Shown here piece after piece: positions 2,752 through 19,793 of a stretch of DNA of 44,908 nucleotides. The stretch comes from an uncultured Clostridia bacterium (GTDB lineage: Bacteria; Bacillota; Clostridia; Oscillospirales; Ruminococcaceae). The first letter of the stretch is position 1. Every line of letters starts with the position of its first letter. Both the position numbers and the translations under genes were made by a program. The stretch is from assembly GCA_947626755.1 (NCBI GenBank), contig CANQTP010000017.1, positions 1 to 44,908 of the forward strand, in the 5' to 3' direction. Under the pieces are notes generated by a model. It was not told where the DNA came from and ran no database searches. It saw only the letters and a list, made by a program, of their open reading frames with translations.

Positions 2752-3642
2752 TTACTTTATCAGACCGTATTCTTTCATAGTTGCGGCAAGTTTTTCTATC
2801 TTGCTCTGCTCCATTTTCAGAAGCGGCAGACGGCATTCTCCCGCTTTCCAGCCCATAAGGTTCATGGCTTCCTTTACGGGTATCGGGTTGACGTCCATAA
2901 ACAGGTCGCTTGCAAGTTTCAGATATTTTATCTGGAGTTTTGCCGCTTCGGCAAAATTGTTGTCAAGGCAGTATTTTGTTATCATATGTGTCTCTTTCGG
3001 CATAACATTTGAAAGTACGCTGATAACGCCTTTGCCGCCGAGTGACATTATAGGCACGATCTGATCGTCATTTCCGCTGTAAACGTCCATGCAATCTCCG
3101 CATTCTTCGATAACTTTGGCAATTGCTGAAATATTTCCGCTTGCTTCTTTAACTGCGGCAATGTTCTCGTGTCTGCAAAGTTCCTTGTATGTATCAAGGG
3201 AAATGTTAACGCCTGTCCGTGAAGGAACATTGTACAGTATTGCGGGAATGTGTATACTGTCGGCAATTGCTGTGAAATGCGCCGCAAGTCCCCGCTGGGA
3301 AGTTTTGTTGTAATACGGAGTAACGAGAAGAACAGCGTCTGCGCCCAGTTTTTCGGCTTCTTTGGAAAGTTCAACGGCATATCTTGTGTCGTTGCTTCCC
3401 GTTCCTGCAATAACAGGAACGCGTTTATTCACTCTTTCAACGCAATAGCGGATACATTCAACGTGTTCCTCATCGGTCATTGTGGAAGATTCGCCCGTGG
3501 TCCCGCAAACGATAATGGCGTCGGTCTGATTTTCGATCTGGTTGTCGATGATCCTGCCGAATTCATCATAATTTATAGAGCCGTCGGCGTTCATAGGAGT
3601 GATTATCGCAACTCCCGCACCGGTAAAAATAGTTTTTTTCAT
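2752..3642 (-). CDS. dapA: 4-hydroxy-tetrahydrodipicolinate synthase
   Basis: Condenses pyruvate with aspartate-4-semialdehyde, the first committed step to diaminopimelate and lysine. The 296-aa TIM-barrel protein carries the GTTGES loop (48-52), Tyr137 in ILYNVPSRTG and the Schiff-base Lys165 in AAVKEASGN. The start is set by GAAAGGA about 8 bases upstream of ATG. It is transcribed divergently from the dinJ-yafQ pair, and the roughly 100-base spacer carries a clear promoter only for the opposite strand. Its substrate is made by asd, encoded 1.1 kb to the right. Confidence 0.97.
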   Translation of the reverse strand: MKKTIFTGAGVAIITPMNADGSINYDEFGRIIDNQIENQTDAIIVCGTTGESSTMTDEEHVECIRYCVERVNKRVPVIAGTGSNDTRYAVELSKEAEKLGADAVLLVTPYYNKTSQRGLAAHFTAIADSIHIPAILYNVPSRTGVNISLDTYKELCRHENIAAVKEASGNISAIAKVIEECGDCMDVYSGNDDQIVPIMSLGGKGVISVLSNVMPKETHMITKYCLDNNFAEAAKLQIKYLKLASDLFMDVNPIPVKEAMNLMGWKAGECRLPLLKMEQSKIEKLAATMKEYGLIK

Positions 3643-19050: not shown

Positions 19051-19263
19051 ATGCGTCTGAAAATAAGAGATATGCGAGAGGACAGAGATCTCACACAAAA
19101 ACAAATAGCAAAATATCTTATGTGCGATCAATCGTTATATTCAAAGTATGAACGTGAAGAAAGAGAAATACCTCTCCATCTTCTGATAAAACTTGCTGAT
19201 TTTTATAATGTAAATCTTGATTACCTTGTTGGCAGATGCAAAAATTCCGAGCGTATAAAGTAA
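19051..19263 (+). CDS. Small XRE-family helix-turn-helix regulator
   Basis: 70-aa protein that is essentially one Cro/C1-type HTH: RDMREDRDLTQKQIAKYL, DQSLYSKYEREEREIPLHLL, then the tail DFYNVNLDYLVGR common to small Clostridial XRE regulators. It is probably a DNA-binding repressor; its target is unknown. ATG 19051 has AGGTGA 8 bases upstream. It is followed by a strong hairpin terminator and stands alone, next to the toxin-antitoxin remnant on the other strand. Confidence 0.88.
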   Translation: MRLKIRDMREDRDLTQKQIAKYLMCDQSLYSKYEREEREIPLHLLIKLADFYNVNLDYLVGRCKNSERIK

Positions 19264-19269
19264 AAATTT

Positions 19270-19300
19270 CCCCTTCGGAAATTTCCGAAGGGGATTCTTT
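19270..19300. terminator. Bidirectional terminator between XRE gene and TA remnant
   Basis: CCCCTTCGG (19270-19278) pairs with CCGAAGGGG (19285-19293). It is preceded by A-rich and followed by T-rich sequence, so it can end the XRE transcript and the minus-strand TA transcript. Confidence 0.8.
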
Positions 19301-19475
19301 ATTTGTAAAATGTTGTCAATAATTTTTTTGATCTGTCAAAGACTTCATCAGATGTATAGCGAACATCGGTGCTGTCTGCTTCTTTATCGGCTTCATCAAG
19401 TGCAGATTCAATATCTTGCGTCTGCCAATAAAGATAATCTTCAAATGCTTTTTCTGTAAATGAAAAGTTATTCAT
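19299..19475 (-). pseudogene. Chimeric remnant: YoeB toxin N-terminus fused in frame to an antitoxin C-terminus
   Basis: 58-codon frame whose ATG overlaps the stop region of the upstream DinJ (GATGAATAAC). Residues 1-21 (MNNFSFTEKAFEDYLYWQTQD) are the conserved start of Txe/YoeB RNase toxins. From residue 22 the sequence changes to ESALDEADKEADSTDVRY and TSDEVFDRSKKLL, which looks like the acidic tail of a RelB/DinJ- or Phd-like antitoxin. The YoeB catalytic parts (central Glu, late Arg, C-terminal His-Tyr) are missing, so it cannot be a functional YoeB RNase. A deletion joining a toxin 5' end to the 3' end of a neighbouring antitoxin gene is the simplest reading. The frame is intact, so a short product may still be made. 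Confidence 0.75.
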
Positions 19476-19740
19476 CAGCCATCTTTTCCAATTCTTCCAG
19501 AGTTTTAGTTACGACTTTTCCTTGTTCCATTTGAGCAGCAGACCGTCTCAGCCTTTCCATATTTTCATCGGAATAAAACGGATCTGCCGAAACTTCAAAA
19601 GGTATGCGTTTTTCACGGGTCATCTTTTTGGCAAATATTGTTATTGCTGTCGTCATTGACATTCCAAGATCGCTGCATATGCTGTCAAAATCCTTTTTTA
19701 ACTTTTCGTCCATTCTTACACTTATTGTAGTTTGTGACAT
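19468..19740 (-). CDS. Type II antitoxin, RelB/DinJ family (YoeB partner type)
   Basis: 90-aa antitoxin: ribbon-helix-helix MSQTTISVRMDEKLKKDFDS, then MSMTTAITIFAKKMTREKRIPFEVSADPFY and a charged tail. In Clostridia this subtype usually precedes a YoeB-type toxin, as it does here in remnant form. ATG 19740 is chosen over the upstream in-frame extension because AAGGGAG lies 8 bases in front. The gene looks intact although its toxin is not, so it is an orphan antitoxin that could still repress its promoter or cross-neutralise related toxins. The yafQ partner antitoxin at 3748 is a different subtype. Confidence 0.92.
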   Translation of the reverse strand: MSQTTISVRMDEKLKKDFDSICSDLGMSMTTAITIFAKKMTREKRIPFEVSADPFYSDENMERLRRSAAQMEQGKVVTKTLEELEKMADE

Positions 19741-19764: not shown

Positions 19765-19793
19765 ATTATAATACAATATCCTGTCAATGTCAA
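19765..19793 (-). promoter_or_regulatory. Consensus sigma-A promoter of the orphan antitoxin
   Basis: Minus strand TTGACA (19793-19788), a 17-base spacer, TATAAT (19770-19765), both perfect. A second TTGACA directly follows the first inside the spacer, a short direct repeat that could be an operator half-site. Confidence 0.88.

Follow-up and report, generated by a model that had tools for sequence, protein, structure and literature searches.

The window analyzed in this study, the whole stretch of 44,908 nucleotides from an uncultured Clostridia bacterium, carries on its minus strand an intact antitoxin gene followed by a 58-codon frame, in which remnants of three toxin–antitoxin genes were recognized. 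The features of the locus are as follows, with missing DNA counted against the corresponding place in G015, a genome of the same genus:

19269..19294, both strands scored: computed terminator-like hairpin between the hybrid frame and a convergent HTH gene
19299..19475, minus: 58-codon hybrid frame, its ATG overlapping the dinJ stop (ATGAATAA)
19300..19332, minus: 3'-terminal remnant of a parE-type toxin gene, read in a shifted frame
19333..19336, minus: junction 2, the word ACAG common to phd and parE, with 298 bp missing
19333..19412, minus: phd/yefM antitoxin remnant coding for the C-terminal half, still in the native reading frame
19412..19415, minus: junction 1, the word GATA common to yoeB and phd, with 457 bp missing
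19413..19475, minus: remnant of yoeB, codons 1–21
19468..19740, minus: RelB/DinJ antitoxin gene, 90 aa, intact, with no adjoining toxin gene
19765..19793, minus: sigma-70-type promoter TTGACA-17-TATAAT upstream of dinJ, 12/12 match

The frame read on the minus strand from 19475 to 19299 encodes 58 residues and lies exactly where the preliminary description had placed it, and the plus strand from 19299 contains stops. Residues 6–23 matched positions 1–18 of the 80 positions of the YoeB profile PF06769 at 16.3 bits, below the cut-off of 27 as expected, since only a fragment remains. At the DNA level, the alignment of the first 64 nt with the start of G015 yoeB scored 52, where 300 shuffles reached no more than 17, which bears out the description of the start as the 21 N-terminal residues of YoeB. 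The hybrid itself is not a member of the YoeB family: in place of a domain of about 80 residues above the PF06769 cut-off it covers profile positions 1–18 only, and it leaves YoeB after residue 21, ahead of the later two thirds of the toxin with the catalytic residues, which we take to be Glu46, Arg65 and His83 in E. coli YoeB. The possibility that a complete yoeB had merely been disrupted, by a sequencing error or a frameshift, was rejected, as the DNA lacks the body of the gene.

The remainder of the frame had been described as an acidic antitoxin-like tail, which holds up to about residue 48 and fails for the last ten codons. Residues 22 to about 48 correspond to the C-terminal half of a Phd/YefM antitoxin; residues 18–53 were 72%, 75% and 78% identical to the Phd/YefM proteins of G015, G017 and G016, respectively, and the DNA score of the remnant against G015 was 63 (shuffle maximum 16). 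The source protein, of about 87 residues, belongs to Phd/YefM by both PF02604 (45.5 bits, cut-off 29.8) and TIGR01552 (34.7 bits, cut-off 20.8) and is followed by a toxin-like gene at the loci L008, L009 and L010, the last being that of G015. The toxin-like gene of G015 passed the Pfam ParE profile PF05016 (31.9 bits, cut-off 23) and failed NCBIfam RelE_StbE (19.3 bits, cut-off 27.9). In G015, the tail belongs to the antitoxin of the neighboring ParE-type toxin and not to that of YoeB; in other bacteria, however, YoeB does have Phd/YefM partners. The PF02604 profile spans residues 2–65 of the intact G015 Phd, and its N-terminal DNA-binding and dimerization domain is absent from the hybrid; about 27 residues of the putative C-terminal toxin-binding segment are kept, with the last residues replaced. 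Residues 22–58 alone matched no Pfam or NCBIfam family, and the idea that they form a short toxin family was rejected, since they align to an antitoxin. Neither of the two outcomes named in the preliminary description as refuting was therefore seen.

For the last ten codons, the match is to the 3' end of the parE-type toxin gene, out of its native frame. The 33-nt piece taken alone scored 19 against G015 (shuffle maximum 15), 22 against G016 (17) and 15 against G017 (16), so that it exceeded the shuffles for two of the three relatives, G015 and G016. When extended by the next 77 nt to 110 nt, the piece scored 62 against the G015 parE 3' end and the DNA beyond it, with a shuffle maximum of 18. 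Among solved structures, the intact G015 YoeB (PF06769, 128.2 bits) retrieved YoeB entries at E<=1e-20 (6 sequences), and the intact G015 Phd retrieved weak matches only (best E 0.028).

Upstream of the hybrid, the preliminary description of an intact DinJ behind a perfect promoter proved accurate. The antitoxin matched TIGR02384 (RelB_DinJ) at 63.3 bits (cut-off 45.65) over positions 1–83 of 85, as a full-length member, and Pfam RelB at 39.4 bits, and it was 84% and 80% identical to the G015 and G017 copies. Both promoter hexamers with the 17-nt spacing also lie upstream of dinJ in G015, G017 and G019. On the contig of the window, the YoeB family search found the 18-position fragment only and the ParE search found nothing, and no toxin gene stands beside the antitoxin, unlike in a functional type II module. 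On the other side, a 70-aa HTH_3 gene (19051–19263, plus strand) converges on the hybrid with the terminator-like hairpin in between, and a sequence resembling the 3' end of this gene also follows parE in G015.

The comparison with G015 shows where the pieces of the hybrid come from. In that genome, an uninterrupted dinJ-yoeB-phd-parE series with all four genes open lies behind the same glycoside hydrolase gene (named by eye) as in the window. The two places share this upstream neighbor, the gene order and the start overlap (ATGAATAA for the hybrid, ATGAGTAA for yoeB in G015), with identities of 84% for DinJ, 78% for the YoeB start and 72% for the Phd tail; they differ in that the window lacks both toxins together with 457 and 298 bp. 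Apart from these two gaps, the first between yoeB and phd and the second between phd and parE, the window is collinear with G015, and each break sits at a shared word of 4–6 nt, which at junction 1 reads AGGATA in both G015 genes and AAGATA in the window. Such short words, common to the two ends, are a usual mark of illegitimate recombination or slippage. The yoeB–phd fusion is in frame, and the parE end is off its native frame.

The C-terminal part of the hydrolase gene was found in 19 of the 21 genomes of the genus, and the DNA behind it was read in nine genomes, namely the own genome, G007, G008 and G015–G020. In G017, dinJ is open, yoeB is cut to 12 codons and a stop, and phd-parE is open; G016 has phd-parE only, with dinJ-yoeB absent. 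G019, the closest by the hydrolase gene (97% over 125 residues), has dinJ cut in frame to 43 codons, with the N-terminal half missing, and yoeB cut to 8 codons, and phd-parE was not seen behind its hydrolase gene. At this locus (L031, about 1948–2110), the dinJ promoter and start are kept ahead of the in-frame deletion, with the C-terminal half of DinJ left. No module is present in G018 and G020, where the hydrolase gene faces a pyrophosphatase gene (by eye), and unrelated sequence follows the hydrolase gene in G007 and G008. The downstream neighbors vary as well: the window and G017 continue with genes for a flavin reductase and a pyrophosphatase (by eye), G015 and G019 with other genes. Given these differing states and neighbors, the place has undergone repeated gain or loss, and the window presents one state of several.

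Across the 21 genus genomes, the 396 family genomes and the 15 loci of a genome_contigs search, the own genome alone yielded the full hybrid. In the genus, the own genome included, 7 of 21 genomes contained matches to the 58 residues at E<=0.01; outside the own genome these were seven places, five matching the tail (about residues 18–53) and two the YoeB start (residues 1–23 and 3–31). The 15 genome_contigs loci, from a search that possibly excluded records of the own genome, comprised six tail and nine YoeB-start matches and none with both. Three of the six tail loci were taken as contigs of G015–G017, and seven of the nine YoeB-start loci carry, by eye, a full-length toxin frame, the other two (L023 and L026) being shifted. 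In these two, from Lachnospiraceae, a frameshifted yoeB accompanies a Phd/YefM-like antitoxin (by eye) near position 3001. Within the family, 11 of the 396 genomes, own included, gave a match at E<=0.001, and none of the eleven places besides the own hybrid spans the whole of it. The longest match, residues 12–53 in G314, is by eye an ordinary Phd-like frame of 87 residues with a ParE-like frame after it; the match to residues 3–31 from the genus search, in G007, is by eye an ordinary pair, in which a YoeB-like frame of 85 residues follows a RelB-like one. Spread by phage or plasmid was also rejected: 29 stretches of viral contigs fitted the search pattern with none encoding a relative, and plasmids and phages gave no match to the hybrid at E<=1e-3. 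No hybrid of this kind appeared in the titles and opening lines of abstracts consulted, which is no proof of its absence.

Elsewhere in the own genome, contig 5 carries a RelB/DinJ–YoeB pair with a full-length YoeB, whose antitoxin is 32% identical to the window DinJ, and contig 10 carries a second pair (L005/L006), in which yoeB is broken: it gives two matches that overlap, and a TAA lies in the second. The Phd relatives of the genome are 41% and (partial) 44% identical and the ParE relatives 33% and 28%; with 33% as the best ParE, no close partner toxin is left for the tail.

These data indicate that the hybrid is very probably the deletion scar of two tandem toxin–antitoxin modules, from which both toxins have gone and one antitoxin survives, in agreement with the simple deletion scar offered as one possibility by the preliminary description. 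The ancestral place would have held dinJ-yoeB and phd-parE as two tandem type II modules, an arrangement preserved in G015. We infer that in this lineage one deletion at a short shared word removed the body of yoeB and the first half of phd, and that another, also at a short shared word, removed nearly all of parE; any order assigned to the two would be conjectural. The start of yoeB would thereby have been fused to the phd tail, in frame by chance, and a few parE codons, read out of frame, would close the hybrid. DinJ and its promoter remain, as an orphan antitoxin. Translational coupling to dinJ may still allow the hybrid to be made, but it is most likely without function and would be expected to erode. 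This reading, although based on one assembly, is strongly supported because the arrangement is uninterrupted in G015, the two gaps carry short shared words and other stages of decay lie at the same place in relatives. The confinement of the whole hybrid to its own genome and the broken yoeB of contig 10 also count in its favor, as does the greater amino acid divergence of the second half of DinJ from G015 (pN 0.258, pS 0.471) than of the first half (pN 0.029, pS 0.344). The contrast between the halves is weakly consistent with a lost toxin partner and kept DNA binding, the comparison of G015 with G017 (second half, pN 0.105, pS 0.656) being of limited value as a reference because G017 has also lost YoeB. 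Counted against the scar are the 33-nt parE piece, with its success in two of three relatives, the disagreement of the two family profiles over G015 parE, and the survivor in G019, which is also an in-frame C-terminal half of an antitoxin.

The frame kept across junction 1, for which the chance is one in three, the retained overlap with dinJ and the little-changed phd tail also count against the scar and make selection on the hybrid possible. Over the 27 tail codons, the window differed from G015, G017 and G016 by 5, 4 and 3 nonsynonymous and 2, 2 and 4 synonymous substitutions, respectively (pN 0.046–0.078, pS 0.121–0.245), and the same codons differed among the three relatives by 1–2 nonsynonymous and 2–4 synonymous substitutions; the tail is thus slightly looser than among the relatives, with counts too few to decide on selection. 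A working antitoxin, whose Phd tail would act with the orphan DinJ as an anti-addiction device and neutralize ParE-type toxins of incoming elements, would profit from the native frame, from the 72–78% identity of the tail and from the retained promoter and overlapping start. The C-terminus of YefM binds the toxin (PMC4803016), which makes a leftover antitoxin peptide possible in principle, and orphan antitoxins are discussed as anti-addiction modules in PMC7192599 and PMC2654758. Nevertheless, the N-terminal half and last residues of Phd are lost, the best ParE of the genome is only 33% identical and the whole hybrid is in no other genome searched; this reading is improbable, and residual activity of the tail would be unlikely, the kept frame being the one feature that speaks for it. 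It is similarly improbable that the decay products surviving at this place are biased toward toxin-free pieces with the toxin-binding half of an antitoxin in frame behind the old promoter, and that such mini-antitoxins protect cells against related toxins of incoming elements, as might be proposed from the Phd tail in the window and the DinJ C-terminal half in G019.

An assembly artefact, with sequence joined or collapsed in the tandem region, is more doubtful still. The genome is a draft of 198 contigs and the single assembly available for the strain; neither break, however, is near an end of the 44.9-kb contig, the shared words measure only 4–6 nt, the pieces differ by divergence from those of every relative compared, and related genomes show similar yet different losses. 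The proposal in the preliminary description of a decoy with the YoeB interaction surface retained, taken here as a decoy or modulator that would titrate antitoxins, hardly deserves credence: residues 1–21 are well-conserved YoeB and a pair with full-length YoeB exists elsewhere in the genome, but 67 of the 88 residues of G015 YoeB are missing, the antitoxin of that other YoeB is distant from the window DinJ (32% identity), the tail comes from the antitoxin of a ParE-type toxin, no whole-length homologue of the hybrid was found in the genomes searched, the hybrid shows no conservation, and its single-sequence structure model, of low confidence and too uncertain to build on (two helices, no strand, mean pLDDT 68.7, pTM 0.37), gives no sign of a toxin fold.

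In previous reports, orphan antitoxins and decaying chromosomal modules are already well described: 2253 orphan antitoxin occurrences were counted in Klebsiella genomes (PMC7192599), orphans are abundant in E. coli (PMC10790755), and chromosomal modules decay by deletion or nonsense mutations (PMC7167474, PMC2654758). As at those loci of Klebsiella, E. coli and ccdO157, the toxin in the window is lost or broken, the antitoxin is kept and the state varies between relatives; the difference is that two modules decayed together here and left an in-frame hybrid remnant. The locus most likely represents an ordinary form of gene decay, of which related genomes hold other stages. It provides a clear comparative example of the decay of tandem toxin–antitoxin modules, here with the loss of both toxins and the retention of one antitoxin, and it illustrates how gene calling could present as a seemingly novel hybrid protein what is no more than a deletion scar.
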